A stretch of 64,000 nt of DNA from Membranipora membranacea. Lineage: Eukaryota > Bryozoa > Gymnolaemata > Cheilostomatida > Membraniporidae. Positions 22,486-56,333 of the stretch are shown piece by piece; position 1 is the stretch's first letter, and each line of letters begins with the position of its first letter. The notes under the pieces are model-generated. The model was not told the DNA's origin. It did not search any database and saw only the letters and a program-made list of their open reading frames with translations. The stretch covers positions 28,260,025-28,324,024 of the forward strand of contig OU612070.1 of assembly GCA_914767715.1 (NCBI GenBank), read 5' to 3'. Made by a program: the position numbers and the translations under genes.

Positions 22486-22506
22486 CAAGATGGAAGGAAG
22501 AAAGAC

Positions 22507-24404: not shown

Positions 24405-24510
24405 TAATTACGCGGTCTTAGGGAGAAGAAGAGAATGAGATGAGACAAAGAAGTTTCACCAATACTGGACACCTCCCAGACATATCTCATGTAAGTATGA
24501 ATACACTACA
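24373..24510 (+). repeat. Partial 3' LTR
   Basis: About 138 bases closely match the 3' two-thirds of the 5' LTR (21404-21538), with a few substitutions. The left part is missing through the deletion that fused pol to this LTR. It ends in the same CACTACA. Confidence 0.85.
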
Positions 24511-24717: not shown

Positions 24718-24905
24718 CTTCAAAACCTGGGTCTTTTGCAATGTTTGACTGCCCCTTGAGTTTTTGTTGTTTGGTCTCAAAGGGGGCTGGGGACAGTCAA
24801 ATATTGCCATAATAAAAGACCCAGGTTGAGGTTTTCTTGGACTCTGGAGTAGTAGGTAGTAGACCAGTGCTAGTACTACTCCAGAGTGCTTATGATGCAC
24901 ATGGA
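24718..24905. repeat. Dispersed repeat, copy 1 (copy 2 near 61080-61206)
   Basis: The stretch carries cctgggtcttttgcaatg, tttgactgccccttgag and tttttgttgttt. The reverse complement of the same order occurs at about 61140-61200. Within this copy, acctgggtctttt and aaaagacccaggt form an inverted pair about 110 bases across, so the family has foldback structure. actccagag/ctctggagt pairs flank it. Confidence 0.6.
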
Positions 24906-28632: not shown

Positions 28633-28932
28633 CAACACAACACAGATCACATATCATTCTGCAAAGAGACACACATCTGTTCTATCCTAAATTTGGTAGC
28701 TAAATTCTTAGTCAGAGGTAAGCTAAATCTTTGTATTGTGACTCAGTCTTTGTCTTTCATCAAGCTTATAGATTACATACAATAAGTTACTATCCTTTGA
28801 AAACTTTCCTCTTTGACTGATTCGGGCAGCTACCTTGTCACAGTGAGTAGTTGAAGACTAAAAGACACAACAAACGTAGCCAGTGATTCGTTGGTAGAAG
28901 TTACAGATTTTGCTCATAATATTGCAGACAAG

Positions 28933-30608: not shown

Positions 30609-32475
30609 CTAGACAGCAAAGCTCAACCTGTGTATTTGATGCAGTTTTCCTTAATTTTTGTTAATTGTGAAAGGGGGCTACTAAAAAGATTCCACTAATT
30701 GTCTACTGCCTGCTGGAAAGATATTATGATATTGCAAAGTTTCCATGTCAGCGTGTAGCAACTGCGTTTTACATTGTGAATTCAGGAAGCATGTGTGACA
30801 TCTGTACATGAAAGAAAAATTGAGGATGTGAAACAATGGGAGGCTAACGATATAAATAGTGTGATTAAGAGTTGTCTTACCCTGACGGTTCCAACATGCA
30901 AGAACGCAGTTGCTAACTATACATGTCTGTAATGCCACGACTGCTTTGTCTCTTTAACTCCGGCTTGTACAGCCCTGTCTGAGGTTCGCTAGCATGCTTA
31001 GGCCTCTTTCTGATATGAATCATCTTTTGATAATGAGGACATGATCATGGGTAGTTTGGGCGCTCGTACAGCTACAAGCTAGATTTTGTGGTATTATATT
31101 ACCTCAAATAGCTCCATACTGTATATTTGATTAATGTTTGACTATTATTTGTTATGATCTGCAAAAATCGCCTAAGAAATGCTAGTAAGTTGACCTCAAG
31201 CAAATGTGTCTTCTACTACAACTGAACGTCAGCTAGACCTTTGGTTTCCTGATTTTGACTTTTTTTCCAGCGATGGTCACTGCTTTCTTCCTCTATGCCA
31301 GTATTGCAAGATTTGAAATACATCAAGCATGCTGTAAACATGGTTTGGCCTAGTGTGCACCACATCACATCACAGGCAGTTTGTGAAAGTAGAGTGACCT
31401 CGTCTTCCAGTAGCCAAGTCAATCATTAGCGGCACTTCGACAAAATGCTGTTGCTTTGGGCCCATGTGGTGTATCACAGGCCTATTGCAGTGTGTGCAAG
31501 TCCAGTGGTTGAGACATCTTCCGAGGGAAAATGCCTTGAAAACTGAACTTGCAGTTTCACAAACGAACTGCGGTTAGTGATTGGCAGTGGGCCTGTGTAG
31601 TGGATCATGGTATACGCATCTCGAGATACAAGCATGTATGGAGGGGGGGGGGGTCGGGTCTTCATGGCCATTTGCAAAGTATACATGCTTGTAACTACAG
31701 ATGTCTATGCATCATGTGTCGGATATTCAACCCACTAGGGGCCAGACACCTGAGCATAACTGTCACCCCGCTGTTACCAGGGGCCAGACACCTGAGCAGA
31801 ACTGTCACCCCGCTGTTACCAATGTGGATGTGTTCAAGATCATGTTCCGTCTGCTAAGGAAGTGGGCAACTCAATACAGGACCGTGTCAAATTAACCAAA
31901 AGAATCAATTCTGATTCAAGTGAAAGCACAGAAACTGCCCATAATTAACTTCATGTTAGTTTGGTGTATGTATCTTGGCTAACATGCTTGAAAATTTTGA
32001 CCTATAGATTTTTTTGTGAAAACTGCTATCATTACAACATTAAACTAATTTCGTTAAAATATTAAAATACTCAATTTGTTTAGGGAAAGTTTACTTGATA
32101 GTCATATTGAACAAGGAAGAGTCTGCTCAGGAACATCTGAAATGAAGTTAGCTGTCATTCTCATCTCAAAACTTGAGATTTTTTATGTAAAGAATGTTTG
32201 GAACTTGTCAGCTATGATGAATATTGTCTCCCCTTTGATTCTTATGTTACAATAGAGTACATGAGATAAAGGCATGGAAGGCGTCAAGGTAACAATGGGC
32301 TGGATAGCTGAAATAGTTTCCATAACTCCAGTTCAGTTCAGTAACTCATTCAAGGAAGTTGGGATTATAAAAATAGCAATATGGATTTCACATAAAGACA
32401 TATCAGGATGTAAAAAATCAAAGGAGCAACGAATAATAATACATATTGAACGTTTTTTAACGTCAAAGACCCATT
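30609..32475. other. Region between VMO1 and the giant gene
   Basis: No coding exon is recognised. It holds an 11-base G run at 31643-31653 and a two-copy direct repeat (next entry). It should contain the promoter and 5' UTR of the giant gene, but no TATA box or clear donor can be assigned. Confidence 0.4.
31738..31821. repeat. Two-copy 42-bp direct repeat
   Basis: Two adjacent 42-base copies starting ggggccagacacctgagca differ at one position. They lie in intergenic DNA with no known role. Confidence 0.9.
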
Positions 32476-35400
32476 ATGGGCAATTTGCTGGCTTCATGTG
32501 GTCTGAAGCGCAGCACAAAAATCGGTAGCACCACGTCCACTGACTATCAATCGGATAGCAGTGATGATGCTACCGTACTACTAGGCAGAGGTAGTAAAAC
32601 AGCTCAAGATTCTAGTCTACCACCAGTATCTGCAGGAGCTCGAGGTGAGTCAATCTACACGCAAAATAAGCTAACAGAAAGATCATTCAGCCATTCTATT
32701 TTTCACTTAGCAAAATTGCTACATCTTTACGTATGGTTTTTCAAGCTCATAGTAGACAGCTGATAGTCAAAGCTGATAATCCGGTGTATTAGAAACGAGT
32801 TCATTGCCTTGATACCATCAAAAGATGATTGATGAGACGGCAGAACTGACTTAGATATTACTTTTACATTTGCAGCCAGGATGCTACAATCAGACAGGGT
32901 TACTGATGGAAAAATCATAGTGTTAATGAAGCCTTTTTAAACATGTGTGTGTTTCTCGTCATGTTACATTAGTAAGGTATTATTCATTTTGACAGGAGGG
33001 CCGGTCTTCGGTACGGCCCACCCGATGCCGATGCAGATGACTATGATGAGCCCACCCACAAACATCGGTGGACTACCTGTGATCGCTCAGGATACCGATC
33101 ACTTTCCTGATCCTATAACAACGCTAGCATCAGGAACTGCCAGTAGCCAGCCTCCAGGTCAGCATCAGCAGCATGCCATGGGTTATCCCATGGACTATCA
33201 GACTGCCTTCCTGACCCAGCATGATATGCAGTATGCAAACATGCTGGAGGCTGAACAACAGCCAGACGGAGAAAGGCGAAGACGACACACCCGGTGTCGC
33301 CGCTCAACTCCGTCTCCTCCTCAACCCCAGGGGATGGAAGTGTCTCCCCAACCAATAAGGAGACCTTCAGCATCTACGAACTACGAAGATATGCGCCGTC
33401 TTCCTGCACCTAAAGGTGTACTGAATGGTGAGCATGCATTTTAGTTCTCAGCAGAAATATCAATTTTCATCTAGATTCTAGATGTATGCTGTCAATTACT
33501 CCTTGTTAGCTTTTCTCAGGACGAAAAAAACAAGGCACTTAAAAATTGCATCATCCAAAGCAAGTTCGGATATTGCATCTTCAGCATTGCGTGTGTACAA
33601 ATTTAATGACTTTACAATATCAAGCCATACTTCTTTTGTCTTATAAGGAAACAAAGACAAAGTAATTACAATTCCTTGATAATAATGTCCCAAAAATGAT
33701 CATGGCTCGATTTGAATGAGCACGGCAAGCTTGGGGCACAATTTAGTTGAAAGTGAATGCCATTTTCCTATTGAAAATAGATATTAATGGATCAATTTAT
33801 AAATAGATAGCGCAGAGTTGCCCTCACGTAAAGGTATTTTTACAGTTATGAATTGTACTGTTTGTATTTCTCATTATAGATGACAGTTCAGTACATAGGG
33901 AGATGAAGGCGAGGGCCGATGATGTGTACGAATCCGTCTACTATTATTACGACGGACCATCATCGGTGAGGATTTCTTACTTGCCTTTCCAATTCAGGCC
34001 ATTGTAAAACTCGAGCAGAAACATTGATGAGATTTATATTCAACATTCTCCTCCTTTTGTCCCAATCGCAGACCTTGCGTCCTTAACGTCCGTCGAAAGA
34101 CATTAGCGTACCACCTATTAGCGTACAAGAATGGTTGAAGACTTTGTAAACACAATTAAAATGATGGCCTTTCCGATCACGTTTAATATATTTTTTTGTA
34201 ACAAAATATTTTCTTTAAAACAGGCTAGCTTCTACCAGCGTCATCTTGTTATAAATAGCCCGCTATATACATATTACACCAACCTTTAAACATCTATTAA
34301 TATTGTATACCAACAATTTGTGGTTGTGATAAAAAACTTCATGAGTCTGATATGGTGACAGTTGCAATATAATAGTTGAAAAGTCCAAATTGCCTTCAAT
34401 GTATTAACTATTAGAATGTTATCTTTTGTACGCAGGACCCTAATTCAAGACGCATCAAGTTCAACGAGGAGGATGCAGCAGGTTAGTCTGATAGTTAGTT
34501 GATATTTTCAAGGTTGTTTATCTCTAACAATCCTACAGACCTTGATTAAATGTTGGTTCACATTGATTTTTAAGACCCGTATAGTCATTCTATTTAGGAC
34601 CAATCCTGTGGTGACCTAATTGATCCGCACGGGACAAAACTTATAGGTCCAGTTTGAGGTGATGAAGTCATCAATTTTTTACCTTTCCATTGTCACATTC
34701 AACCGCCTGATAAGTTAGAATCCATATATACTCCCCTTGGAATAAGAAGCCTGCATTGCTGGGATAACCGATCCAAATCTTACAATTTTTTCATGTGACG
34801 GGAGCTAGGATTAAGTTGAGTGTGATTTACTGTAACTTTTGTTGTTCAAGTTTACATTTTATAACCCACTAAGTGTCACTCCCGTTTACTTACAGGTATT
34901 GATACTGAGAGGCAGACTCAGTATCAAGGCCCAATGTACCAGGACGAGCACCCAATGGGTGGGTACAGTGGAGCCGAATACCTGGTGGCTGATCCAGCAT
35001 TCAGCTATTATCTTCCAAGCAGTGCGGTAAGTTTTTGCCTGCCTGAGTTACACTATTTCTTCCAGGGTTAAGGTTGTAATTTCGGCAACAGATACTAGAA
35101 AGATTTTTCTTGAAAACGCCATTAGTTTACATGATGTCAATCGATCTCAATGCCCTACCAGACCAGTTGATAGTATCATTATTAGTGAAATTTTGATATT
35201 GATAAAATGAAAGGCATTGTAATTTTGGACATAATGATTATGATTCACCCATTATTGGTTACATAATCTAGGAGAGTTTGTCAATCTAAATAATCTAAAT
35301 ACATCAGACATCTAGCTAATGGGCTGTTCCTATACATTTGATCAATGTGATGGATCCGCAATATTATTATATGAATGTTACCATCCTGAATAACCGCCTT

Positions 35401-38400
35401 TATATTAACACCGTATTTGATAAATCATCTTAACCTGATTGTGACAATCCATCGTTAGATTGACTTAATTATAAACTAAAGAATGCTGTGAATAGGGCCT
35501 TGCTCTAGGATAGTCATATTGATCTCATACCATGATAGCCTGTCTTGACAAGCTTGGTTCGGTGGGTGGTTGGGGAGGGGGCAACCACGCATCGAACCAA
35601 ACTTGTCAAAAAAAGCTAATACCATGATAGGTTTCAAGCTCAGCATAATACAACATACAGTGGTGCACTTATCCTCGCACATCATACATGTCGTAAGCAA
35701 GTCAGCAAATCAGGAGTCGAGCCCTGTTACGAGTTTTTTTGTTGATTTTTGTGCAGTTGCATGTCTATATTACCAAACATAATACATATTTGCATGTTTG
35801 CAGAGTAAGTTCCTACCCTCGACACTGGCTTGTCCAACACAGCTGGAGCCACACCATGTCAAGCAGCTGCAGAAGACGGTGTTTGGAGCCGCAGTGACTG
35901 ATGAACACCAAAAGGTGTTCATCAACACTCAGCTGATTGACAGAGACACTGGTAAGATTAGGCAGGGTTTCTTCGCTATAAACACAGTGCCTCAACCATC
36001 AAATCAGAATATGGAGCAGCTTCTCGACCAATCCATCAGCATCGATGTCCACCAAGACTCCGTGGACATGATGGAAGAAGCTGAGCTGAAGAGCTTCCAC
36101 CACTTCTATGACAAACCCCACCTTGTCAACATGATAGCCATCGCCGAGCCTGCTGGCACAGATCCAGATCAAGAAGACAGAGATCTGATGACAGAGGCGC
36201 TAAGTGCTCTCCAGCCTCAATTACCAGGACTTCTCCTGTATAATGAGGCTGATGACACAGAGCACTTCAGATGGCTGGTGGAAGACCGAGAGAGATTCAT
36301 GACATGCTACTTCCAGAAGTTGCACAACCCTGCTAGCATGACAACCTCTCGAAAGGCTTCAGACTATGTTGCTGAGTATAGAAGAACTCCGGATATTTCC
36401 ATCAAGGCAGCTCTGATGGATTTATCGAGTATCTTCTATCCAGGTGTAAAGGGTGAAGCTAAGAGGCTCACCCATATACAGCTGCAGCAACTGGAACCAC
36501 GCCATAGTCTGCCGACGCCAATAAGTCTAGTATATAACTGCCATACTCCACATTATGTACCTGACAGCAGAGTACGAGACAGGGTTCTCACATTACTATA
36601 TGACTTATTGGCGAGGAACATCCCATACCTTCCTTGTATCATCATAGTGGCTGAAAAGAATGACCAACCAGGTGTGTTTAGCTTTCGGTACTTGCCTCAA
36701 CATCCTCACCTTCCGAAAACAATACTCTCCCCACTGATAGACTCCCCTCCAAAAGAAGCCAGCGTCATCACGTTAGCCTCTAGGTTTGAGATTAGTTGGG
36801 GCAATCTAGTTCCCGAATACAGTACGCCTCAGATCATGAAACAAATGATAGTACTGACCACAAGAGCTGTGGAGCTTGATGTCAAGACAAGACAACTTCC
36901 AATAGGACTGTTAGCTGACTTGGCAAGCAGGGAGCTAGTAAGGCTGATCATAAACATCAAGCAGCCTAAGAATGATAAAGCTGCAGCAAAGCTTATGTGC
37001 TTTATGGTAGATCTCATCCAAACATCCTTTAAAACATCAGCAGTAGCAGATGACTCTCTACAGGCTTTAATGGATATTGCAGAGTACAAACGTCTTCAGA
37101 GGGGGCCCGGTGTTTTACTTGCCATACCCAAAAATCACACCAGCTATACCTACAACGACTTTCAGCTCTTTTATGTGAACGGGGAATCTGTTGCTGTAAG
37201 TGATGTGGCCCTTCTCACGGAGCCAGATGACCATTTTGATAACTTCAGGCGCAGGCGAACAGCATACTTAAAGTCTCTGTATGACAACTTTGATATAAAT
37301 TATGCAGTTGCTCCAGCGACTACTGAAGAGAGGTATCTGCTAGTGAGTAAAGGAATACCAATTGACACAGACACTGGGCATGGTATTGAGAAAATACACA
37401 ACCGGGAAAACCATTATGAAGTATCAAAAACTCATCCATCAATAAGAGTTATCCTAAACTATCCAACCAGCATCGCTCCACCAACCAGGAGACACTGCAG
37501 GGTTCTGGAACCTGCCATCTTAGCTGTGCTGACAGCACTCCATCCGGTCACTCCTGGTCAGCTTATTATTACTCCAATAAACCAATCTCCAGGCACACTC
37601 GCAGACTTCAGGTTTAATTACACAGTGATGGGACGCCTGTTACGGCTGTCTTACGAGTTTGGTGCTATTAAACCTGGTTTGGAGAAAGAACTCATGTTTT
37701 TGACGAGCAAGGCCTACCATATAGATATGAAGAAAATGATAATGCCAGAAGGTTTGAGAGCGAACAGGATAATCAACTCAACCATAAGGGTGATAATAAA
37801 TCGCCCAGTGGGTAATGTAACTGTGAAGGAAATGACAGTAACAGCAATACAGAGCATGCTCACCTCCCTGGATGAGGTGACGGCATTTGATCCCAAAAAG
37901 TATATGGCAAATGCAGCAAGGAAAGCCATGATGGCAATACATCCTCCGGTACCAGGTGTTATCATAGCAACTCCTAGAGAGCTCTGTGAGGCTGAAGACT
38001 ACCCTGCAGACTTCTATCTACATTACATCAAAGGAGAGCAAGTACAAAGGTATGAGGAAAATTTGCCTGACCTACTGGACCTACTGATGGAGAGCGACCA
38101 ACCTCCGCTAATCCCGAAAGAACTGTATGTTGAGTATGACATTCGTTATATTCCAGTGTTAGATCGTGTACAGATGATTATGCTCTCTGCAGGATCCATC
38201 CCACTGATAATGGATTGTGATACAAAACTAAAGTCTGGCATATCACAAGTGCATTCATTGAAGCGAATTAAACATCTGCAAAGGCAAATCTCTTATCTAA
38301 GCAAACCAATCATCAGAGTAGTTTTCAACCAACAGTTCCGTCAAACAGATCTTTCAGCAACCATGGTGTCTGACATAGAAGATATGCTTCTAGAGCTAGT

Positions 38401-41400
38401 GCAGACTGTCAAACCAACCACACATGCCACAATCATCCTGACACCTAGAAACACTCATAGCACCGATAAAGCCACCTATCATTTTGATTATATCGTGCAT
38501 GGAGATCTAGAGTATGAATGTAAATCAGAGAGAATTCCATCTACGGTGTTTGAAGTAGAGGAGCAGTCTGACACGAGTAAAACTGTGTTTGAACATGGGA
38601 GTAAAACCATAAAGCCAGAACTGTCCACTACAATAACTGGATATGACCAAATGGATAAAGAGGAAACTGATAGTCATAGAGTGAATATTGATCACTTGAA
38701 TATGATAAGTCTAAGACTGAAGGGTTTGAGACACAGCTCTGACAGTGAGGAAGCAAGAAATCAACAGATTGCAGAGGTTATTGACATATTACAGCCAGTC
38801 ATTTACACCCCTAACATAGATGTTGTGAATAAACCAAACGGAGACCTCGTACTGACATTCAAACCAAAAGCTGAACTAAGGAACCCGCTCACAATCGAGT
38901 CCATTGAAACTCAAAGTCAGGAGAATTTTGACTATCTATTGAGCCAGTCACTCGATATGTCTAACGATTTTTATTTCAAAGAAATTCTACAAAATGAGCC
39001 AAAAGATGGACAACAGGATACGAGTAAAGTGATAAGAATCAATATTATGTTTGAAAGCTCAATATCTGAACACAGAGTTTGCGATGTGAATGAAGAGGCT
39101 CAAATAATGGAGACAATTATAAGGAAACTTCTCAAATGGGGACCAATACAGCATGGAACAGTTCTTGTTGTACCTGTTAACAGTGCGGACATAAAAAGAT
39201 CTGTAAAGCTGTTTTACATAGTCGACGAATATTTGCTTGATTACGACATCAATCTAGTGGAGAGACCACATCAACAGTATGTTAAATATATACAAAGAGA
39301 CAGTATTGGTGTCCTAGGAGCGATTGACAGGGTGACCATAGCTGAAGAAGAGTCCAAATATATCAGGGTTCAGAACCGCTTTGAAAAAATTCCTATTGAT
39401 GTCATAGTCAACAAGACCAAGAACGCGCCTCATGTGAACCTAGGTTCGGTGATTTCCCAATCCATTGCATTGTTAGGGAAGGTCAAACCATCACAACCTG
39501 GCACACTTGTTGTTACCTCTGTAGACAGAAAGCAGTATACCTTCCAATTCCGATTTGATAACCCTCTAAGAGATTACTCACTCAAGCTCCATCCTAAACC
39601 AGACCCTACCAAGCTTGGAGAGTTACTGGCCAATGCGGTGGAAGTGAAAAGTGGCGAGTATGGTAATGTTCACACTACGGAGTCTCATGATGGAGCAGGG
39701 ATTGATATGATTAGACCTCCACTTCCTGTAGATGTGGTACTGATTGATGCACATGATCCACAATCTAGATTGGTTCTGAGTCAAGAGCTGTCTGACGAGC
39801 TACAACAGATTCTCAAAACCACGAGACCAAAACAGCCTAGCACCATTATCGCTTCACTAACAGATACTCCACGAGGCTCCAGAATGAAGTTCATGTATGC
39901 CCCTGATTTCACAATGATTTCATACACCCAGCATGTGATTCCCCATAGTGAAGATCTTAAAAGTTCTCTACTGAAATCCAGGGTCCTAAGAATAGGTGAC
40001 TATTCAATATGTGAAGTTATACGCCAAAAAGAGCACAATTCTGCTTCGTCACCAAGACACGGACAAGTTTCCATATCAGTGCTTGTTGATGGAGGAAGAG
40101 GCACAGACAAAAAGCTTCGCCTACTAGCTGTACCCATTATGAAGGCACTGAAAACTGCAGCTCCATCTCAACCCGGCATTTTGACCGTTGACACAGTTAG
40201 AGGATCTTTAAATCCCAAAATGAGATATCTACTCTCAGAACCGGAAATGTTTGTGCTGCATTCACGGTGGGTAGACGAAGTAGAGGCACTTAACTTCATG
40301 AAAAAAAGCTTTGCAATGAATTACCTAGGTCCTATGGGATACAATAAGTTAAAGCGAGCAGAGGCTGTGCAGTGCGACTCTACGTTAAATGGAGATCGAG
40401 TACCCATTAAACTTCTAGTTCATTCTGATTCAATCCCTACACAGGCAATGTATGATATAGCGGTACAAAACTCACTTCCTATTCTAAGGGCTATTGAACC
40501 TAAAGTTCCTGGGTCCCTGCTGATAAAACCTTCGAGTAAAACGGATGAATGTGGTGCCCCTTTTGAGGCATATTACAGTGTTGATAAAAAACCGAAGCTA
40601 CATGCAATACTGAGGTTCTTTGATGCAAGCAATGTGAGAAACTTGGCTGACATTCGATACAAAGCTCTACCGGTGGATTTGCTGGACTCGGAGTCACTAA
40701 AAGAAGCTAAAATTTTGGTCAGGAGGCTTGCTATCTCTGCTACTAAGGAGAAAAACCCTCTGGTGAGTGTCATTATGATGGATGGAATTGGCAGCCTACA
40801 TGACAAGCTCTTACAGACTATTGAGGAATTGGTAGCTACAATTGATCCTAAAACACAGACATCTTTGGTAGTGGAACAGTTCAGAGGTTTTCCAGGTGTG
40901 AACAATGATTTCCTGTTCCATCTAAGTGAGACCGCGTCAGATTTCACTCGCCAGTACAGAGTTAAAGTCATTATAGACGTTGACATTAGTCTTAGAGCCA
41001 AAAACCAAACTATCCCTGTTGATATATCTAACCCAGAGCTGTGTATACCTTTGGTCGACAAAATGGAGAGGTCAGTGAGAGCAATAGTAGACATCTCAAA
41101 ACCAGTGGAGATGCAAATTGCAATTGGAAAAGAATTGGTCAATGACAAGAAAAAAATCGCAGCATTGATAAATTCGCTGTTGGTATCAATCAAACCTCAG
41201 AAACCTGGCCTATGGTTCGTTACTCAAGGAAACACGGGATTATACAGTATCGATTATGCTGTACAGAAGATGGGATATGATTATAAAATGTCTTTTCTAC
41301 CAAAAATGCATGTTGGCTCTGAGGTAGGAGTGATGTACCAAGTGAAATATGACAAAAGAGATCGTCATGAAGCAGCTTTGAGGGAAGGCTTAAGTTTTAA

Positions 41401-44400
41401 AAGCGAAGATGTTGGATCTATATCAATAGATGTTTTGGTGATTGGAGGGTTTCCCGTCAACTCTGCAGGGCGCAAAACTTTGTACTTGTCAGTGGATAGA
41501 GCATTAAACTCCCTACAACCAACATTACCAGCAAAGCTCTACCTCATGCCAGCAGCAAAAGGTACATTTGATGTTATGTATGATGTGAAATCCAAAGATA
41601 CCCAAAATGAAGATCAATCACAATCTAATCTCACTACAAGAGAGTCAATAATATATGGCTCCCTCGAGCCTGAATACAAGAGTTATATCCCGCAGAGCGA
41701 ATGTGATGTGGCTGCAGACAGAGATGAGAGCGTTATTTACTCTCCCGTCGAGGAAAGCCCTGACACGGATGAAAGCGTGTACACATACTATGATCCAAGG
41801 CCGTCTAGACCAAAGAGACGAAGAAGGAGAAAATCTAAGTCAAGGTCCAGACACTCAGTGAGCCTCATGGGAAATAGAAAAGCTTCTACTGAACTCTCGC
41901 AGGCTGGAATAAAGTACGATACAGATATTATAATCAACGATGACACCAGTGATATCGAAAAACTTCTAATTAAAACCTACGGAGTTCCGTTGGAGGATGA
42001 AAACATTAAAATTCTCATCAAGGAAAGGGAAAAAGGAAGCTTACATACCACAAATCAGATTCATCATAATATAGCAGTTGTCGTACAAGGACAGGACAGA
42101 GTGGTTGACAAGCATATGGATGCTGATATACAAAAGTTATTACGCAATATACGCCCCACCAAACCAGGTATCGTCTATTTTGCTTTAGATGGGAGTAGAA
42201 AGTACCTTCCTCTTGGGTATACATCTATACCTGTTCTACTACCAAACACAGCCGAAATATCTAAACTGAACAATTTGTTGTCTGATGGCATTCCGGTGAG
42301 ATGGGGAGAATATATTGCTCATGATAGGGTAATGAGAGAGGAGAAAAGATTCACAGAATCAAGCGAGTACAGTATTTTACCCAATGTCAGCATTGTTTTC
42401 AGAGATGCCTCTGGGAATCTAGTACCGCTTCCTGATGACATCAGGAACAAATTTGGAAGAGAGCTTGCACAAGTCATTGAGATGGTACACCCTGGAAGAC
42501 CAGGATGCCTTGTGATAGAACTGAGTGCCAACAATGGAGTAGAGCTGCCATCATACCATTATTCTGTCATTAAGAATTTCCAAGACTATACAAGTGCCAG
42601 CCACTATGCCCCCGATTATTCAACAGCCGAGGAGAATGCCTCTAACTATGAATACTATGAAGCGAGATCAGTCCTCAAGTTGAAAAGAAAGAAGAAAAGT
42701 AAGAGACGACGATCTAAGGTGATCAAGCCAAACCTAGTATCACCAAATCACTTCAAATATTGTGACAACACAGAGCTACTAGCGCACCTGTGTAGAAAAG
42801 CCATGAATATTACAACTCTGGAAGGAAACACAATAAATACTATACAGGCTAGGAGTTTGTATGGTGTAGGCGCTGAAGACCAGCTAGAGCCACCAAACAT
42901 TATTCTAGGCTGGGCCCGACCTGACGTACCAGCTGACAATGAAAGTCTGTGTGAGCTGCTGGATACACTGTTGAGCCAACTTGGAGTTAGCAAGTCTAAC
43001 AGGCTCGAAGGTATAATCCTAGTATGTAGGAACTTGACGAGCTATGATTCAATGCAGACATACCAGCTGTACTTTATTGAAGACCAGTCAGCAGCCCAGT
43101 ATTTGGTTGACATTGTACCAAACCCTCCACATCTGCACCTCCAAGCCTGGATGGACAGATCGATCACAATAAACAAAACAAATCAAGAGCTTGTTTCCAG
43201 TTTACTCAAAGCAGCCGAATTTGAAACAGGAAAACAACCGCATGCTCCACCAATCACTGTTGATATTGTTTTGACAAACTGGCATCAAGTCCATAACAGC
43301 GATATAGAGAAGGAACAGGTGCTCAAGACAGTACAGAAACTATTGCCTGTCCTGGCACCTGCATTGCCAGGAACTATGATAGTGACACCCATGCCTGGAT
43401 CTGATGACAGATATTCTTTTAATTACGTAGTCAACAACATCCGTGAAGATTATAAGATCCACCACAGAGACTTTGACGAGAAAACCATCACAAAACTCAT
43501 CAGTAGGAGTATAAAGATAGGAGTGCATGATGCAAACAAAACTTATGAGAGGGTGAGAGAAATGGAACTTGATGCTGGGGAAGCTAGTTACCCGGTACCT
43601 ATCGATGTGATTGTGGACTTAAAAGCAGTCACTTCTATCCCATACGACCCAGTTACCAAGTTTGTGGCTCCAGATATGCAACAGGCAATTGTAGATGCAG
43701 CCTATGATCTTTTGAGTTGCTTCAAGCCAACAAAATGGGGCACTCTCATTCTCATCCCAAGATCGGTAGGATTTGAGGCGTACTACACAGTCAAAGTTCC
43801 AGATGCGTACCAGATACAATTTCAAGCACCCGGAACAAAAGATGAAATGGCAAAGCTGTTCAAACGAGCAATTGCAGTGCACCCAGATGATCCTGATACT
43901 CTAGAGAGAGTTATCACTACTGAGCGAGAATTGAACTTCGGTGCACACAGTGGGAGCCGCGACATACCTATCACTGTCATAATGAATGTTGATAAGCTGC
44001 CCACAGAAGATGAAGAAAGAGTTGCCCAAGATTGGATCAACAAAATATTGAGAGAGACAAAAACAAGTCTACCTGCAACAATAATTTTGACTCCTACACC
44101 AACTGCAAGAGGGAGGCGCCAAAATTATGACTTTCAGTATGTCTTTGACTTTATGCAAGATGACTATGAGCTGGAAGTTGTTGACATCACCATGGATGAA
44201 CGACTCAGACTTCTCGCCAAAGGTGAGAAAGTTTGCAGTAATGCTTCTGATTGGAGCATCTCCCAGAAAATTCATCAGATTGAACTTCAATGTCTAAAGG
44301 GCAAAAACGATCAAGCAGTGATACAGGTGGTCTTTGGTGGGGAAAAACCAACCACCGATGTATCATACTTGAAAGTACGAGAGAAAATACAGTCAGTTCT

Positions 44401-47400
44401 GAAACAATTGAAGCCAACACAGAAAGGCAAGCTTCTTGTGACACAGATCGACCCTGAAACATTTGACTTGTGTGGTGTCTATGTAGTAGAAGGCACAACG
44501 GCGTCTCATCAGTACTGTGCTGCTGAGGCAGACTACGAAACAGAGGTCTACAATGCCTTACACAATCAATCAGTGTCGATTAGTATCTCCAACATTACAG
44601 AAATCAAAGAACTTCTGCGCAACCAGCAACTTAATTACCTTGAAAAGAGAGTAACAAAGAATGTATGCGTGAAAGTGTTCCTCAGCTATCAACACAATGA
44701 GGAGGATATCAGAGAGGAATTACAGGCAGTGAGCAGAATAATGAGAAACTCTGGGATCAAAGTTCCAGGTCTGATGGTAGTCAGTAGATATCACGATGAA
44801 GATCACAATTGGAAGATGAAATATGAATTCAATCCAGAAAAAATGCATATCAATACTGCTACAGATGTTGACCATAGGCCGAATGGTCAACTCCCTGTAG
44901 GAGGACATGAAAATGCTAATGTCGTTTATCTTCAGCGTATGCCATCTAGAAGAGATCAGAATAAATGTTACACCCTAGACAAGGATAATCCTGCTGAGTT
45001 GCGACGCATAGCGAGAGCTATTCATGAGACTAATATCAAAACAAAATTACCAGATCGGAGACAAATGCCTATAGATATTGTGCGAAGTGGACCTGAGGTG
45101 ACTTTACATGAGCAGGACAATGGTTACGGAGAACTCTCAGACTGGATGGATGATATGTTGCACAGCAACATAATTGACAAAGTTACAGACATTGAAGTGA
45201 ACCTGTCCATCATGCTACCAGAGAATGAAACTATGACAGTTAACCAGAAGGAACATGTTGTCGAAACAGTTACAGATTTCTTGAAAAATCACAATTTGAA
45301 AACTCCTGGCCATATCTTTGTTATCCCATCAGATGGTCCGCCGAGCAATCAGACACAAATGATATATAAATTTTTGCCAGTAAAGCAAACAGTGTATGTT
45401 GAGGACATTCAGCAGGATAGGGCAAAATCCCCGGATTCCAGTGATTATCAAGTGATTCTGAGAGATGATATCTCCAAACAGCAATTAGAGAAGATGCTTA
45501 AAAAAGCGATTTCACTAGAGAAAAGTGAAGATCACATTTACCAGCAGATCAAAGATATCAACATGAATTATACATACATCAGCCAAGCTGTCAATGAAGA
45601 GCTATCAGTCACAAGTCATACAGGATTGCAGAAGGTAGGATCACACAAACACCGTCGTAAAAGAAAGAAAAAATCAGAGAAGACTGAATTGCCTGTGAAA
45701 GCACTAGCCACCGAGATGAAGAAAATAAGGCAGCCAAACCCAACTCAACATTTACATCCGCCAAAATTGTACCAACGCTCTCTGAAGCCGACTCCCGATA
45801 CTACAAACTACACTGTGTTACAAAACAGTCTAACACAATTACAGGAGGGTCTAACATCTGCAATGAGAGAGATTACAGTTGATCTCCTGGACAAAGTAAG
45901 GATTGACCAACCAGGAAATTATGTTGTCAAACCAGAGTTCAATGTTGGGAAACAGCAGATAATGAGGCTGGACATATTCCAAACTGGAAATGGAGGTGAA
46001 TCTGGCTCAACACCAGTGGACTTTAAACCACAAATCATTGTACAAAGTCCAGACACCATCACTAAACAATTAAGATTTGAACCAGCGAGAGGCCTTTCCC
46101 GAGATACAAATCTAGACATGCAAGGTGTGGTAATGAATGCGCCCCCTCAAGGAGCACAACAAAAGACAACTCCTGAAGCTAATGTTAGGCTTTCAGTTGT
46201 CGTTAGTGAGGTAGTCTCATTTGAACACCAAAACCACATCAAAGATGAAATTGTACGCCAACTAAGTAGGGCCAAACTACCAGAGTCAGGTCATTACCTG
46301 GTTATGCCTGAAATAAGCGGAACACAAACACAAAATGAAGGGCCACAGATCAGCCTTAGCTTCTACAAAGCAGATGATGTTGATCTTGATGACTACGTTT
46401 GTGTACAGGAACCTAAGTGGAAGTCGAATGCAGTGACAATCATTGATGGTGGGAGTTCGGTGATCAAAGAAATCCAGTTCAATTCGATGTACCAGCAGGA
46501 TATCAAGCTGGCATCGTCTATGGCTACTCCAGTTTCAATCGACCCTAGCCCCCAAACAGTAACACAGAAGATTTCACAGCGCGAACTTCATGCCAGAGAA
46601 ACAACGGAGAATAATGAAACACCCTCAAGAACTGCCAAGTACACTCTGATGCATGCAGATGAAGATATGATTGCGCCAGGAATGGCGGATTACATAAGAG
46701 AGCAAACTATAAACCTCATCAAAAGCCTTGATCAGCGATCTGGAAACTATTTGGTTAGACGAGATGTGAAGCTTAGTGAGTCATCCCAAAATCCGATTGT
46801 TACTCTTGTAATGTCCACTGCTAATCAGGAGACACTACATACACCTGCAGGAGGTAAGATCCACAGGACTAATCCAACTCAGGTCGCCTCAGAAAAAGTC
46901 ATTGAGTTCAGCCAGATGGGTACCATAGATATCCTTAAAAAATTAGCTAACTCAACACCAGTGTCAATAATGACAAATGAATTCAGCCGAGCCGATAGGT
47001 CCTTAGATACTGATGTGCGACAAAACAGTGTCACCTCTGTGAGAGCTGAAAACAATACGCCAATCTACACATCTGATACATCCGAAAAGTTGTTAACCAA
47101 GCGGCGTCCCTCAGCTAAATCACATAGGTCCTCAGTCAAGAAGAGGATCAGGGCCAAAAGTGAAAATCACGTTTCTAAGTTCACCATCTTGCATGCAGAG
47201 GAGCAGACATTAGATCAAAAAGTTGAAGAGTATTGCCGCAATGAAATAACAAAGCAGATTCAACAGGCAGAATTCAAGCCCGGAGAGTACCTTGTCAAGC
47301 CAGAAATTCTTTCTTCAATGAAAGGACAAAAGCCAGAAATAAAACTGCACTACTTATTGGCTGACACTGAAGATGCTGCAATCAATGAATCAACTGCATT

Positions 47401-50400
47401 TCCAGCTGGTAAACCTACATTCAGCGCAAAAAAGTTCATAGAGTTTGCGGAAAAGAATGATTCTACAGTTCAGCACCACCTTTCATCTTCTAAACCTGTA
47501 GATTGCAGTCAGATTCAGGTGACTGAGGTCCAGCGACTGAACGCATCCTATATAATAGATGCTATGAACACAACAACACGAATCGAATCCTTATCTCATG
47601 ATACTCAAAAGAGAGCACGATTCCTGCATGATCTTATGATAAGAATGGCGTTGAGTTTGCCGACCCCAACGTCTGATATCAAAGTCATTGTCAGGCAGCC
47701 TACCAATGAAGCTAAACAACCTATAGATAACTCAGACATGAGAGCGCAAATACATAGCCTTCTCACAGGCTTACAAATCAGGACACCTGGGACGGTTGTA
47801 GTCCAGGGAGCACAGTACTTCTTTCTGCCGGAGGATTTGACTGTGAGTCCAGGAGTTCAGAAGCAAATTTACTCTGAAATAGAGGACACTGATTACTCAC
47901 TGAAAGATTACAGCATTGAATTTGAAGATGTGGGTACAGATACAGACATGGTTCTTAAACATGGCTATATTCTAAACAGTACAGATGAAGCAATTGCGCA
48001 AGAAACTGTTAGAGAAATTCATAAGAAGTACGTCAAAGTTGAGAATGCTTCAGATCTGTCAGGGCCATTAGCCAGCTTATTACCAGAGGATCAGATGAAC
48101 AACGATATGCTGAATGCGGTTATTGATGCGATGCCAGTGAAAGAAATCAAAATAAATATAGCCTGGAACCAGAAGCTGTGCAACTTAAGCCAACTTCTCA
48201 TACACAATATAGCGATCAAGTTCATTGAGCATCCTCTTAAGGTGCCAGGCACTATGGTATTATCCCAATCAGGGGCAGCCAGTCCTGAACTGCACTTCAT
48301 AGCTCATGATGACACATTTCCAATGGGCTCCGAACAGAAATACTTCACAACTGGATCATACTTCACAACGCAGTTACAACCAGTGGACTCAGATGCTTAT
48401 CAGATTTTACTATCAAAGGGTAAACCTTTATATACAAAGGAGAGACCAAACATTAAGGAGAATATAGCCAGGATTCATAAAGAATCACTTATTGTGAAGC
48501 TCGCTGATCTTAAAATAACAGACCAGCTGATAGGCTTATTGAGTCGGGAAACCACCAAAGATAAAATCGCTCAGCTTGATCCAAGCTCTGCACTTAATAC
48601 AGAACTCTCGAGACAAGCCATAAAGGAGTTATTCTCACTAGCCATAGAGAGCACTAAAAGGCCGAAGATAACACGTGGAGAGTCCGAGATACAGAGAGAA
48701 ATTAAATCTATTGTGGATACAATTCAGCCTGTGACAGGAGGTACACTCATTGTCAATGAGAACGAGGATGGTGAGACAACCTATGAATTTTCTACTCTAA
48801 CAAAAGCAGATTTTGGTCTCAGAAAACCGTACCAGCGACATATCATTAGTGACACAGCCGCTGAAGTAATTCACAGACTAGAATCAGTCACATTACCAGT
48901 GAAACCAGATGACAATATCTCGAAGATGAAAGTCAGAGATCTTGAATCGATTGCAGTGCAGAAATTTAAACACCCTGATGACGTGATTGTATCCGTGGTG
49001 TTGCCAGAAGTGAAAGGAAAATCTAAGGACAAGGCATTGGCTGCAGCAAAACAGTTACTTGACTCGATAGACCCACAGTATCCTGCATTGCTAGTCCTAC
49101 ACCACACAGATACGAATGACAATCATTTGGAATTTGGCTATATGCTTGATGATGGTTTGAGCAATTACAAATTGACAGTAACCATCTCTAAGCATGCTGA
49201 ACTAACTAAGATTGTGGAGGAGTCACATTATAATCAGGAAGAAATAATGCTGAATGACAACCAAGTTTTTGGATTAAAATATCCAAAAGTTATGATCGCT
49301 GTGACTGTCATGGTAGACGATCAAATAAACCTGAGTGGAGCGAGCATAGAAAGAGCATACCGACATGCCATCACTTCTTACCACCCATACAGAAGCGGAT
49401 ATCTTGTTATGCTTAACAGCTCAGAAAAGGGAAATGAGGCATTTCCTTACATTTCATTCAGCTATATCTCTAAACTAGGATTGTCGTACAACATAAGAGA
49501 GGTACCACGGCCTCCCGATGATTTGCTACAGGTGATGATGAAGTTTTCACTGCCTGTGTACCTTGATGATCACTTCACCCAACAGCGCATCAGACAGATA
49601 GAAAACTCAATAGACTGTCCTGCGGAAAAAGCGGAACTTATACCAATGTCAGTTGTAAACATGGGTTCGGCAGATTGGTCTCCACAACAGTTGGCAACAG
49701 TTAAGAACGAAATCAGTGCAATGCTAACAGGCATGCAGCCTACACGGCCCGCTACCATCATGGTGATGAATGATGGCGGTTACAGATACTCATTGGATTG
49801 CACATTTGTGGATTTTGCCAACAGGAGGTCATTTGCGTCCACCTTACCCATCCTTAACAAAATGACGAAGGATTTCGGACAAATTCTCAGTCTCACTGGA
49901 GACGAAAATGACATCAAGAGAAAGCAGCAAGGATTAATGAGTACGGTGGTAAATAAGATGATGGAGATAAAACAGGCTAAAGAAAATACACAGGTTTCAG
50001 TAGGGGGAATTTTGAAGCAATTCTCCAAAAGACTGAAAGAGGAAAAAAGAAAGTCACTAGTGAGTAACTCTGAAAAGGATGAGCCACCAACAACAATCAA
50101 GTCCATATATCCACAACCTGATAGCGAACACACAGCGCAGAGAAAAAAGCCCAGGAAAGCTCATAACTACCACATTGAGGCCCTGCAAACTCCGATGCAC
50201 ACTAAAGTCAGAGAACTAATGGATAAAGCTATTGATGTGACAGATATCCAAAATGTATCTAACAATGTAAGAGCAAGGCAACTAAACTTCACTTTTGAAG
50301 CATTCCCAACAATAAAAGTGATCAGAAATATACCAGCTGCTGTGTTTCTATCTGCGATGGATGCCAAAACAATGGAGAGGGACATTCTCAAAATACTAAC

Positions 50401-53400
50401 AAAGATAGATCCAGCATCTTCAGCTACATTGTTAGTGCATAAAGCACAGGCAGGCTTCACATATCACTATCACATTGAGGGATTGAGCAAAAGAACAAGG
50501 ATGGATGTGCAGTTAGCTGAACACCTGATCAAGTACAATAGTAAAGATGAAACCAGGATAGATCCTAATGACCTTCTACTGTCTGCTAAGAACATCTTCA
50601 GTGAACAGCTGAAAGAAATTATGGAACATTATTCTGTTGATCCAACCATTGATGTGGTTTATGACAGTATAGACCCTACTATGAGACAGCAGGCTGCTCG
50701 AAAGAAGGCTCTGGAATTCCTAACTCACTCCAAAATTAAAGTTTCCGGTGTTCTTTTCCTTACAGTCAAAGATAATGGACCCTGCACATTTAGCTTTGCC
50801 GCAACCAATACCAAAATAAACATACCAAACATCATGCAAGAAAGCCAGACGAAGGCTTTGCGCTATACAGTAAATAAAGTTGTTCATATGACTGCATATA
50901 AGGACCATTGGAGACAGGCCAGGGCTGTTACATTAGATCCAGAAAGAGGTGGTTTTGAACTCAAAATTCAAGAAATGCACATGAGGAGCATAACCATAGA
51001 GAGATTACCTTCAATCACTATACCAGTCAGTTTGGTAGATGAAGAAGACGACGAGCAGAACAAAGATCTGTTTAATGACATGAAACCCTCTCTGAAGAAG
51101 ATGATGGAAATGATTGATCCTCTTATGCCAGGGACATTGATAGTATCCACACATCCGATAGTCTCATACCAGTTTGTACCGTATAAAATCACACAAGAAC
51201 TAGGAGAGGAGAGTGTCAACTACCAGACATACATTATCCCAGACAAGTCAGTGGGGGAAACTATAAATGCAGTCAGTCACTGCATAACTTTAAACCCCTA
51301 TGTGCCGGAGCCTTTCCAATCAAAGATAAACCTTAAGGAGACGGCGAAAACGAAGAACAGCAATGTGATTACCAATAAATTATGTCAAGTTCACATTCCT
51401 CACCACTCCGCTACAGCTGAGAGATTAGCACATGACAGACATCACGAGATACTGAAAAAGATGTTCCAGTTATGCATTCCTTATCATTGGTATGATGTAT
51501 TAGTATCAAAGCCAATTGGCAGCGCGGATGCAACACAAAGAATCAACTACCACACTTTACCATCACTTACAAAAGAGACCAACTTCACACCAAACTCACT
51601 CTTGCATAAGCAGTATGATGTGCAGTACCACCCGCCACCAAACCAGTGGATTATGATGGATATGGTTATTGCAGCGCATAAAGTTGACCCAGCATTGTGT
51701 ATTAGTGTTGCTAAGCAATCTAGACCACCGCGTCCAAGGTTATGCATCATTCTAAATCACTTACTATCTGATGGGCCGCCCAATGACGAGGAAAAAATAA
51801 AATTGGAGGAGGATATCTTAGCAATAGCAAATGCCAAATGCACTTCGGACTTGTGTATTATTATTGCCACCCCATACCAAGACTCAAAGAGCAATGCAGA
51901 GTACATCTATCATATGGCCGATCAACTGAAAACTGATTCCATCGATACAGATAATGCACTGTTCAAATTTCACTCAAACAATGAGATTAAGTTCACACCA
52001 TTCCCTAGTACAGCAGCCATGTTAAATCTAGTGTCATGTGGTTACGAGGTGTCTGAGGATGCAGAACATTCTCAAATCATTGATTCATCCCACAAGACCA
52101 AAAATTCTCGTTGGAGCGGTATACGTGTGATTGTCAACCACAGAGAAGGAAAACTCCTCAAATTACAAGAAAAAGCAAACATTGTTATGGCAGTGACCAA
52201 CATCCTTAGACAGCTCGATCCACCAACAGATGGATATCTGATAGTTACTACAGCAGACCCACAGCAACAACTTGGACCAACCACTCCAGCCTACATATAC
52301 ACACCTATTACCATGATATCACAAGATGTGACCTGTCTTAATGCTCTGATTCCCGACATTCCCAAGAACATTGCCATCTTGGCTATACCTAAACTCTCCG
52401 ATAGCGACCTCCTGCTAGCAGCCATACAGTCAGTGAGGATTGAGTATCCAGTCACTGAACAGTCAGTGCAGGTTATACATGAGTCGGAGAAGCTGATTAC
52501 AAAGTCTAATGATCGAGATGTACTTGTGAAAGTGATGCTTAACGAAGCAGCCATAGTCAAAGGACAAGTGACACATGACTTCAAACAGATCTTCTCCAAG
52601 GTTTGCAGCATCATTTCCAGTATCAAACCTACTAGAAGTGGTTTCCTAATCATCACACCATCAGAGTTTGTTGACCCAAAACATTATGAATATCACTACC
52701 TAGTAGCAGAGCATTCAAATGGTTATACCATCCCACCAGCCAGCACCACATTAGCGGTGTCAGATCCAAAAGTGGTCTTTCATCCAAGGTTAGATAAAGT
52801 ACGTGTTCTAGCGTGTGTTCGTCGAGGAGTCCGAATAAACAAGCAGACTCAAGCAGCCTATATCGACATTAAGGCCAAAGAAGTTGAGTACAGGAAAAAC
52901 CATCCTCGATCTAAAAACTACCAAATAGTCATCATTGATGTACCAAGCAATATCAGGCGTCCCAGCCCACGTGATATTGATACCATCAAGATGGCTTCAG
53001 ACCGCATGATAGGATGGTTGGAACCAATTTGCAGTGGAGTACTGGTTTTAACCCCACAGATTACAGACCATCAACCAAAGTATGAGTATATGGATATCAG
53101 CTACACAGTCGGCTTCGACAATCACCATCTGCCAAAACTCAGTGAGCAATTAGATTTACTTTTAAAATCACGTGTCTCAAAAAGAAACAAACCAGATACT
53201 TCCCAATATCGCAGTTACAACCCTTACAGAATTAAAGCATCACTGCTGCCCAATGCCCATGACATGATGCAACTTGTAACAAAAGCCAAGTTGGTGAATA
53301 AGGTAACTCCGTCAGTCCTCACAGAATTACAGCGCACGGAGGGCATCTGGAACAAAAAAACGAACGACCATCTCAACCCAGTGGATATAAAAGTCATTCT

Positions 53401-54649
53401 CAACACGACAAAAAGTGATAGAAGACTGTCAACAGGTAAATTGGAAAAGGTTGTTGAAGACATATTGACCATCATACACACAATAAAACCTTCTGTCCCT
53501 GGATCTCTTATCATAACACCAACACATGGGGCAGATCAGAGGGACTACCACTACTGTCCTGATGATCCTTTCTCTCTACATGTAGAGTCCACTTTGACTT
53601 TCGCAACAGCATTTTCGCAGGCTGAGAGAAAGGCGCTAGATCAGGATCAAAGAGATGAAGACTATGAGTATCTGGCCAACCAAAATATCACATACAGACC
53701 AACACCTAACGCCCATGAGATGAGTCAGCTTGCTGTCACCTCTATACCTATGCAGGACTCAGCTGAGATGATAAAGGTAACAGAGGATTTGATAAGCAGA
53801 TATGGTGAACCAAAGAACTTGTTGGAAGACAACATACCTCTTCAGGTGATCTTCAACCATTCAATCACAGACCCAGAAGCAACTGAGGATAATTTCAAAG
53901 AAGCTCACCTCCAAATGATGCAGCTCAAAGTAAGAATGAAGACTCTTGGACAAGGTACCCTTATATGCACACCAAAACTCAATATATTCTCAGTCAAGGA
54001 GTCGCAACTCTTCTATGACTACCATTTCTCACCTGAATACTTGTTACAAGATAGAAGAAACAAGTCATCGTCAAAAACAACATTATCTTCATCTGGAAGG
54101 AGATTTGATGTGGTCTACTCACCAAAACCAGTTGAAGAAGACTTAACGTATGTCCTTAAAAACAGCTGTCTTCTTGACGCTGATCCTAAAAAAGCTAGTG
54201 GGAACCAAGAAAAAGTCACCAAACAAGAGAAAGATACAGCACATATATTCAAATTTGGCGACAGAGTCAATGTCAAGGTATACTTTAATATTAGCAGCTC
54301 ACAACCAATCCTGTCAGACATGGAAATCAATGACATACTATCAAACATCACAGAACTGCTGCAGTCAACCAAACCAACAAAACAGTGTATTATCACAGTA
54401 TCTAAGACTGCAGATGACCCGATCGAATATTACTTTCTTACCAATCCGACTCAACCAATCTCGCCGTCTCCCTCACCACCAGTATTTAGACCATGGCAGT
54501 TTGCAAGTACGACAAGCATGGAATCATTTTGGTCAGCAACATCTATGGCTACTACAGGAACCAAACATCCTGACAACTGGTATGCTCTACTATTTAGATT
54601 GCAGGTTTATAGGCCATATCAATGTGTATCCCACAATGCAATTCTCTGA
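32476..54649 (+). CDS. Giant lipid-anchored repeat protein of unknown function
   Basis: Predicted product of about 6,569 residues from six exons: 32476-32644, 32996-33427, 33880-33965, 34436-34481, 34896-35026 and 35804-54649. All borders are GT-AG and every phase agrees. The start has A at -3. MGNLLASC fits an N-myristoylation site (Gly2, small residues at 6-7) with a nearby cysteine for palmitoylation. Residues 1 to about 290 are low-complexity: Met/Pro/Gln-rich, an Arg-rich patch (RRRRHTRCRR-like) and YESVYYYYDG. The rest is about 45 diverged copies of a unit of about 140 residues. No enzyme motif, transmembrane segment or named domain is recognised. Likely cytosolic and membrane-anchored (inference). 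The 3' end could change if a weak donor at 54580 (ctg|gtatgc) is used, but the stop at 54647-54649 is the simplest end. Function unknown. Confidence 0.88.
35804..54649 (+). other. Single 18.8-kb exon with about 45 diverged repeat units
   Basis: This exon follows a clean acceptor (atgtttgcag) and stays open for 18,846 bases. I counted about 45 matches to a core of the form hL..h.P..PG.LIVTP. Good examples are ALHPVTPGQLIITP, VKPSQPGTLVVTS, LAPALPGTMIVTP, IKPTRSGFLIITP and IKPSVPGSLIITP. Each unit runs: a strand like IpIxVhhN, an amphipathic helix of about 20-25 residues, the core, a Y.F.Yhv strand, a DY.h strand, then a helix ending near a conserved Ser/Ala-hydrophobic pair. Some units are worn, for example those near 38.8 kb and 51.5 kb. 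Four strongly basic patches interrupt the array, at about 41813-41851, 42674-42718, 45643-45682 and 47095-47165. Confidence 0.85.
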
Positions 54650-55860
54650 AATTCCCAGTGAGATGAGGTTACAATAACATGTGACCATTGATATGAATTC
54701 ATGGATTAGAGGTAAAATACACAGATGGCTATTTGTGGAGAAATTACATATAAGAATACCAGAATATAACTTTGTGTCAGTAATTTGATCTAGCTGAAAT
54801 TCTGGCAGCTTTATTGTTATGCATTGAATGACCTCCCAGTACTGGCCTATAAAATCTCATGCTTACAGGATCGGCTGTAGCATTACTGAACTTTTGGACC
54901 AATCAAAGATAAGAAATTGTTTCAAGCAATCACTTATAAATTTCCATAAGCTCGTTCAAGGTCAGATATGTTCCCCTAATCCATGAATATATCTCAGTGC
55001 ATGTGACATTGCCTTGATCTTCCTGGTAATTTAAGGATAAATTGCATTGTGCAGATTGTTTTACAAATACATAATCCATTACCATTATAATAGGCCTCTA
55101 TGTAGTACAGATACTTAGTATGTCTCAATAGGCTGGGAGCTAGATTTTAGTCTGATGAGAAACTCAATCATAATGATGAATGGGTGAAAACAGCATTTTA
55201 CCCGTTTCAGAGAGGTCCATAATGTAAAAGCAGTGTTTGTCTCCTTCAGCAACTACACTATAGAGCCTGCCAAGAACAGATGACCTGGAGTTGAACTAAT
55301 AGATTATTATATTGTAGATAATTTTGTCTAATTTCATTCACCCAGGTTGGCATCATTGGTATCAAACATATAAACATCTATCAGAACGAATTCTATGCAT
55401 CAAGTTTAAGTTATTGATGACAATGTTCTTGAGCTTTCTGCTGTTTGAGTTCCAATTATGGTATTTTGTGTATAGATTTTTAGGTGATCACTTAGGGGAT
55501 AATCCGTGTTACGCTTCTCACAAGGCTTTCAAGGGTGTCCAGGAATCGAGCAAATTATTTACAATGAGTTTGCCTCTTTGCATATACTCTGGTGATTAAC
55601 ACTTTTGTCAAGTATCAGCATCGTAGTATATGCACTGTATAAACATCACTTTTCTCAATCACTCTGCATACATACATAGGCCTACATTTACTGGCAGATA
55701 ATAGAGGAGTAATTGATAAAAGTGATGGTGATGCGGGTGGAATATATATATAATGCATCAATTTACAACAACATATTATATATGTATATATATCTATATG
55801 CAGTGTACATTGTTGGAGTAAATATTCATCAAATTGGTGTTTTTAAACTTTATGCCAATA
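54650..55860. other. Downstream region of the giant gene
   Basis: Presumed 3' UTR, then intergenic DNA. No AATAAA is obvious close to the stop. A short open frame at 55324-55599 has hydrophobic content but no family resemblance and is not called. TA-rich tracts lie near 55745-55800. Confidence 0.4.
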
Positions 55861-56333
55861 GAAAGTTTTCTGAGCTCTTATTTATGCCTCAATTTGGAGT
55901 TGTCCTCTCTCCAGTTTGGTACTTTTATCCCACGCCGCATAGGAAAAACCTGCTGAAAGAGGGTTATCTTGAAAACCGCTTATGTTACGATAAAAATTAT
56001 TTTTGATTCAGCGTCTGCACCATTGAAAACCATTGTTGATAAATCTTAATTTTAGTGACGAAACTCATGAAAAATTATGCCAAATTGTCCGCAAAACAGG
56101 CAGAAAATGCTATAATTGACTATCCAAATACTAAAATGATTTCCCAAACTGTGCCCATATGAGTTTTCAATGCTGCAGATTCTGAATCAAAAATAATTTT
56201 TATCCTATTATAGGCGGTTATCAAGATAACCCTCTTTTCAGCACATTTTGCCTATGCGGCGTGGGTTAAAAGTACCAAACTGGAGAGAGGACAACTCCGA
56301 ACTGAGGCCTAAATCAGAGCTCAGAAGACTGTC
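55861..56333. mobile_element. TA-flanked MITE, copy 2
   Basis: A 473-base relative of the element at 19481-19987, with the same terminal inverted repeats and interior order (cagaaaatgctat, tccaaatactaaaat). It is flanked by TA at 55859-55860 and 56334-56335. It lacks a short interior piece present in copy 1 (around accctgagagacagggt). No coding capacity. Confidence 0.88.

Follow-up and report, generated by a model that had tools for sequence, protein, structure and literature searches.

A giant gene of diverged tandem modules and its two further copies on the same chromosome in the bryozoan Membranipora membranacea

The stretch of Membranipora membranacea DNA analyzed here (the window: 64,000 nucleotides of contig OU612070.1, assembly GCA_914767715.1, written C6:28260025-28324024 below) carries on its plus strand, at positions 32476-54649, a giant gene that encodes an ancient array of about 38 to 45 diverged modules. 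The gene almost certainly belongs to a real animal gene family with three copies on one chromosome and proteins of about 6,500 amino acids, and comparison of the copies shows that this family is under purifying selection over the whole array. The genome that we searched comprises 339,339,785 bases in 18 contigs, 29,389,538 of them in C6; the published genome description gives a span of 339.4 megabases (Mb) in 21 scaffolds, a chromosome 6 of 29.39 Mb, and RNA-seq data deposited alongside the genome as ERR6464929 (PMC10290214).

The six exons of the gene have GT-AG ends and join in phase into 6,569 codons with one terminal stop, as the initial annotation of the window had proposed. That annotation had also treated the region as one gene, which agrees with the single structure that the three copies have in common; a division into several separate genes was rejected on the same grounds. 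The start codon lies in exon 1 (32476-32644), 18 bases downstream of an in-frame stop, and this exon encodes the N-terminus MGNLLASCGLKRSTKIG with a possible signal for N-myristoylation at Gly2 and palmitoylation at Cys8. Exon 2 (32996-33427) encodes a low-complexity leader. Most of a tyrosine-rich acidic tract (DDVYESVYYYYDGPSSDP) is encoded by exon 3 (33880-33965) and its end by exon 4 (34436-34481), and exon 5 (34896-35026) is placed by its splice ends and phase. Exon 6 (35804-54649) contains the entire repeat array in 6,281 codons plus the stop. A stop-free run of this length (18.8 kilobases, kb) has a chance of about 10^-175, given a stop density of 0.062 in other sequence sampled in the window; the remaining five frames contain 236-512 stops each, and base use in exon 6 differs among the three codon positions. 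Over the last ~40 codons, codon use falls slightly below background and the same stretch is poorly conserved, which leaves some doubt about where exactly the protein ends; the tail past the last unit (54446-54646) is poorly conserved, and one of the other gene copies, copy C, stops 44 residues earlier. The leader of 288 amino acids, the linkers, and three polybasic stretches form the part of the protein that is not made of units.

Repeat seeds were chosen by a loose motif and then refined with HMMER. A model built on the N-terminal half only, when run against the C-terminal half, found 18 stretches at an expectation value (E) < 1 and 12 at E < 1e-3; the reciprocal model, built on the C-terminal half only, found 20 and 11 in the N-terminal half. 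In these held-out tests 50 shuffles per half returned no match at E < 1e-3; when the halves were reversed, they gave zero and two stretches at E < 1 with a best E of 0.017. The final model recovers 42 stretches at E < 1 and 38 at E < 1e-3 in the protein, a count that is not independent because the model was trained on this same protein; in 50 shuffles it recovered nothing at E < 1e-3 and a mean of 1.4 stretches at E < 1, and in the window's other open frames of at least 25 residues its best E was 0.16. The 38 strong units lie between 36077 and 54445 (36077-36370, 36503-36796, 37397-37732, 37784-38137, 38264-38617, 38990-39313, 39344-39652, 39716-39994, 40025-40243, 40355-40756, 40736-40960, 41141-41314, 41381-41632, 42020-42325, 42332-42706, 43211-43552, 43556-43906, 43922-44230, 44273-44590, 44639-44854, 45164-45544, 46160-46315, 47654-48004, 48113-48460, 48575-48931, 48959-49225, 49253-49588, 49595-49930, 50288-50590, 50618-50923, 50972-51307, 51710-51967, 52085-52366, 52481-52732, 52874-53206, 53339-53704, 53825-54211, and 54224-54445, all on the plus strand), with a median start-to-start spacing of 131 residues.

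The unit at 46160-46315 also belongs to a divergent subfamily of four units on the plus strand at 45737-47644 (residues 3600-4235; with sequences such as KPGEYLVKPEI), whose relation to the main unit profile is indicated by hhalign (P = 2e-5 in one comparison, probability 77%). Weak unit-like stretches were found at residues 699-809, 1304-1342, and 2688-2747. With 38 strong units, three more from the divergent subfamily, and a few weak ones, the earlier figure of about 45 copies is fair; the accompanying statement that the whole protein consists of unit copies is overstated, since only 3,863 of the 6,281 exon-6 residues (62%) fall within the 38 units. Positions conserved among units are mostly those of a hydrophobic core, together with aromatic residues, proline, and glycine. 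Unit-to-unit identity has a median of 15% and a maximum of 29% (693 of the 703 pairs, those with at least 50 shared positions). This is far below the 81-96% identity between gene copies, and the array is thus much older than the gene duplications, in line with the earlier impression that the units are far apart and the array old.

The genome was searched with residues 2649-5644 (2,996 of the 6,281 exon-6 codons). Among 12 candidates scored, four matched at E <= 1: the window copy (W), two further copies (B and C) in which the frame is open across the whole query, and a weaker one, at E 0.077, located within copy B. Copy B has the opposite orientation, is separated from W by about 186 kb between gene ends, keeps the six exons and their splice sites, and encodes 6,548 amino acids. 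Copy C is located 3.2 Mb from W. Under the exon ends of W it contains stops; these are cured by one extra GT-AG intron inside exon 2, and with the resulting seven exons copy C reads 6,523 amino acids with zero stops. The predicted intron keeps the frame, measures 395 bases (C6:25062715-25063109), and represents a gain or loss between close paralogues. In all three copies exon 6 is 18.7-18.8 kb long and free of stops and frameshifts, with identities of 96.0% (W-B), 81.3% (W-C), and 81.5% (B-C).

The duplications extend beyond the gene. In a comparison of pieces of at least 250 bases, within the stretches compared around each copy, the block 26082-60623 of the window recurs in pieces, inverted and about 186 kb off on the same chromosome, at copy B (about 34.5 kb), and copy C matches 32028-59781 in pieces (about 28 kb). 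In copy C the gene end and 3' flank are tandemly repeated past the stop (C6:25083321-25086596), with one 1.37-kb unit at 93% identity and shorter pieces at 87-94%.

The initial annotation had taken the 18.8-kb open frame itself as a sign of selection, and this can be assessed directly from the ratio of nonsynonymous to synonymous divergence (dN/dS, by the Nei-Gojobori method). For exon 6 the ratio is 0.375 between W and B (over 6,280 codons), 0.339 between W and C, and 0.326 between B and C (the latter two over 6,183 codons). Between W and C it stays below 1 in every one of the 38 units, with a range of 0.16-0.67 (one unit was trimmed by 7 residues to remove an overlap), and amounts to 0.33 inside the units and 0.35 outside. 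The leader gives 0.71 for W-B (11 nonsynonymous changes), 0.52 for W-C, and 0.63 for B-C, values that rest on few changes. Indel lengths were taken from frame-blind nucleotide alignments, for exon 6 without the last ~80 codons. All exon-6 indels counted are multiples of three (1/1 in W-B, 29/29 in W-C, and 28/28 in B-C), whereas 7 of 29 (W-B) and 8 of 40 (W-C) intron indels are. The dN/dS values of 0.33-0.38 and the in-frame indels together show that the gene family is under purifying selection, and they uphold the earlier claim.

One could assume that the locus is an artefact or a decaying duplicate, that is, a pseudogene or a selfish repeat expansion. The segmental duplicates of different ages on the same chromosome would fit this assumption, as would the synonymous divergence (dS) of 0.049 in exon 6 between W and B, which is below the 8-18% by which their introns differ and hints at gene conversion between these two copies. 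However, gene conversion would touch the estimate of age and not the sign of selection, and the three intact frames of 18.7-18.8 kb, the dN/dS values, and the counted indels leave this explanation hardly credible. For exon 6, a pseudogene is ruled out by the same three observations.

That the unit is not recognizable as a known domain, as the initial annotation had stated, held in profile and Pfam searches, which gave no convincing match in 37 units. Across all 6,281 exon-6 residues, scanned in two halves at E <= 1, the only Pfam match was GD_N (the N-terminus of the serine protease gd) at E 0.046, which is below the cut-off (14.4 bits against 29.6) and recurred in one of 37 single units at E 0.015; the leader matched zero families at the same threshold. 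Scanned one by one, 37 of the 38 units matched 23 families, one unit each, with a best E of 0.0081, which we take as chance. Ig, fn3, spectrin, and other muscle domains, as well as plakin and ankyrin repeats, gave no Pfam match at E <= 1 in exon 6 or the leader, and PDZ gave no Pfam match in either; spectrin, plakin, and ankyrin repeats were likewise not found in the 37 single units. NCBIfam returned one glycogen synthase model for exon 6, at E 0.095 and with 11 bits where 845 are required, PHROGs gave no match, and neither half of exon 6 matched a PDB sequence at E <= 1. The unit profile matched eight PDB sequences at E <= 10, the best of them a designed knot protein at 0.3, followed by an allergen, EcoRI, and others; these too are taken as chance. 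In a set of 5.8 billion proteins, whose coverage of animals is uncertain, 874, 480, and 7,995 candidates were scored and none matched at E <= 1. A tblastn search of phages with the first 56 residues found none, and among the literature matches listed there was no paper on such a protein.

The earlier proposal of a new family stands against Pfam, NCBIfam, PHROGs, PDB sequences, and this protein set. As far as these searches carry it, the claim is therefore strong with respect to curated libraries and tentative with respect to eukaryotic genomes, above all those of other bryozoans, where orthologues would be expected first. An alternative explanation is that the units are an offshoot, particular to this lineage, of a domain family known in other eukaryotes and have diverged beyond detection at the level of Pfam. 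However, no family reached the Pfam cut-off and no PDB profile match fell below E = 0.3, and we consider this alternative rather unlikely.

The unit is predicted to be a small alpha/beta domain with weak fold matches. The AlphaFold2 model of one unit (predicted local distance difference test score, pLDDT, 80; predicted template modeling score, pTM, 0.61) is a small compact domain with the element order b-a-b-b-b-a, where a denotes a helix and b a strand. A two-unit model has a similar order of elements and a fourth strand; its mean pLDDT is only 63, and it was used solely for the order of elements. The unit alignment that was kept has 13 rows, and two versions with overlapping rows were discarded. 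Foldseek found no match at E <= 0.001 against the PDB or against viral models. With THUMP, HPF-YfiA, and Clp D2 C-terminal domains, superposition at a root-mean-square deviation of 2.2-4.5 Å is confined to a b-a-b-b core about 55-75 residues long. No Pfam match to THUMP was found among 37 units at E <= 1.

Outside the units, three polybasic linkers are encoded on the plus strand of exon 6. The first (PRPSRPKRRRRRKSKSRSRHS, 41795-41857) follows the tyrosine-rich acidic tract ESVYTYYD and has 12 lysine or arginine residues in W, 12 in B, and 9 in C; the second (VLKLKRKKKSKRRRSKVIKP, 42671-42730) follows NYEYYEA and has 12, 12, and 11; the third (GSHKHRRKRKKKSEKTEL, 45638-45691) has nine in each copy. 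A tyrosine-rich acidic tract thus precedes two of the three linkers, and a similar tract is found in the leader. At the N-terminus, the first 19 residues of the protein are identical in all three gene copies, and MGNLLASCGLKRSTKIG, which begins MGNLLASC, appears to fit the N-myristoylation consensus, with a nearby cysteine for palmitoylation and basic residues. A hydropathy scan with a 19-residue window, made without a dedicated predictor, found no clear membrane span and no hydrophobic N-terminus. The protein is probably intracellular.

We favor, with a probability of roughly 0.4, the explanation that the protein is a giant cytoplasmic scaffold tethered to a membrane. Its N-terminus would be myristoylated and palmitoylated and would anchor the protein at the membrane's inner face; the string of modules would serve as a long scaffold or tether with partners bound along its length, and the tyrosine-rich and polybasic linkers may be regulated docking or lipid-binding points. 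Several observations weigh against a scaffold of this kind. The acylation call depends on a short consensus, and the copies are close paralogues, which makes the identity of their N-termini weak evidence of conservation. The maximum hydropathy of 1.62, inside the core of a unit, falls at the customary threshold of 1.6 for a membrane span, which makes a span possible. The units have no conserved polar surface residues that would point to binding. The near equality of dN/dS inside and outside the units means that selection does not single out the modules, and the leader is less constrained than exon 6 and without a Pfam match.

A further point against the tethered scaffold is that nuclear signals are an equally good reading of the polybasic stretches. 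In a giant associated with the nucleus or with RNA or DNA, these linkers would act as such signals or contact nucleic acids, and the units would derive remotely from an alpha/beta fold that binds nucleic acids, for example THUMP; we regard this as quite improbable. The protein might also be a spring or ruler of muscle or the cytoskeleton, in which a titin-like chain of small domains determines length or provides elasticity, for example in the retractor muscles of bryozoans, which are fast. The roughly 40 compact modules per chain with their median spacing of 131 residues, and the lack of a clear membrane span, are compatible with such a role. However, the domains typical of muscle giants were not found in exon 6 or the leader at E <= 1, and a putative N-terminal acyl anchor would be atypical for a sarcomere protein, which makes a spring or ruler unlikely. 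Returning to the tethered scaffold, its fullest version is more tentative: a giant family restricted to bryozoans, with an undescribed domain superfamily whose expansion to about 45 copies came early in the lineage, would form a very long acylated cytoplasmic scaffold and would since have been duplicated into three selected genes on one chromosome. We hold this combination to be tenable and somewhat doubtful.

The architecture resembles that of other giant tandem-domain proteins, and the sequence falls into none of the families in the libraries covered. Giants of the titin and twitchin type likewise have thousands of residues and tens of tandem small domains per chain; their domains, however, are Ig and fn3, neither of which was found here, and their genes presumably have many exons, whereas the bryozoan array is contained in one 18.8-kb exon. 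AHNAK and AHNAK2 are giant scaffolds and repeat proteins in which, likewise, short 5' exons are followed by one giant coding exon, and AHNAK is cytoplasmic and membrane-associated. The AHNAK repeats are much more alike and non-globular, whereas the bryozoan units of about 110-140 residues are predicted to be globular and have a median identity of 15%. The AHNAK family is defined by a PDZ domain together with AHNAK repeats that hardly differ from one another; with units 15% alike and no PDZ match in exon 6 or the leader, we do not place the protein in it. FSIP2 and CCDC168 presumably have a very large coding exon in common with the bryozoan gene, in whose exon 6 no Pfam model rises above its cut-off.

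To our knowledge, titin-sized proteins are rare and nearly always built from a few recycled domain types. Here a giant array consists of a module without an assigned family, in which frame and fold pattern were kept as the units drifted to 15% identity, and three such genes are intact in a single animal whose phylum has received little study. Should this be confirmed, it would yield a new domain family, a case in which nature itself tests how a giant repeat gene escapes decay, and a way into the lineage-specific cell biology of bryozoans.

The remainder of the window contains several other features. On the minus strand, frames at 2757-4839 match TPR models (three of three scanned) and presumably encode a protein like STIP1/Hop, and two of the three frames scanned at 9361-12448 match Tex_YqgF and helix-hairpin-helix models, which we take to be SRBD1/Tex-like. 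On the plus strand, 21655-24748 holds pieces of a Gypsy-type retroelement: gag-like and zinc-knuckle-like pieces and a 423-amino-acid frame with a reverse transcriptase (Pfam RVT_1, E 1.1e-30), in a region of strong GC skew; the Gypsy, gag, and zinc-knuckle labels were given by eye. The start of a secreted-looking vitelline-membrane-outer-layer (VOMI) protein at 28855-29178 (plus strand, E 2.3e-10) lies within the block that is duplicated together with the giant gene in copy B. Upstream of the gene, the matches in copy B to an 88-base stretch at 31734-31821 recur at 42-base steps as a tandem array. Downstream, two arms at 55850-56290 resemble an inverted repeat by eye and perhaps represent a small mobile element.

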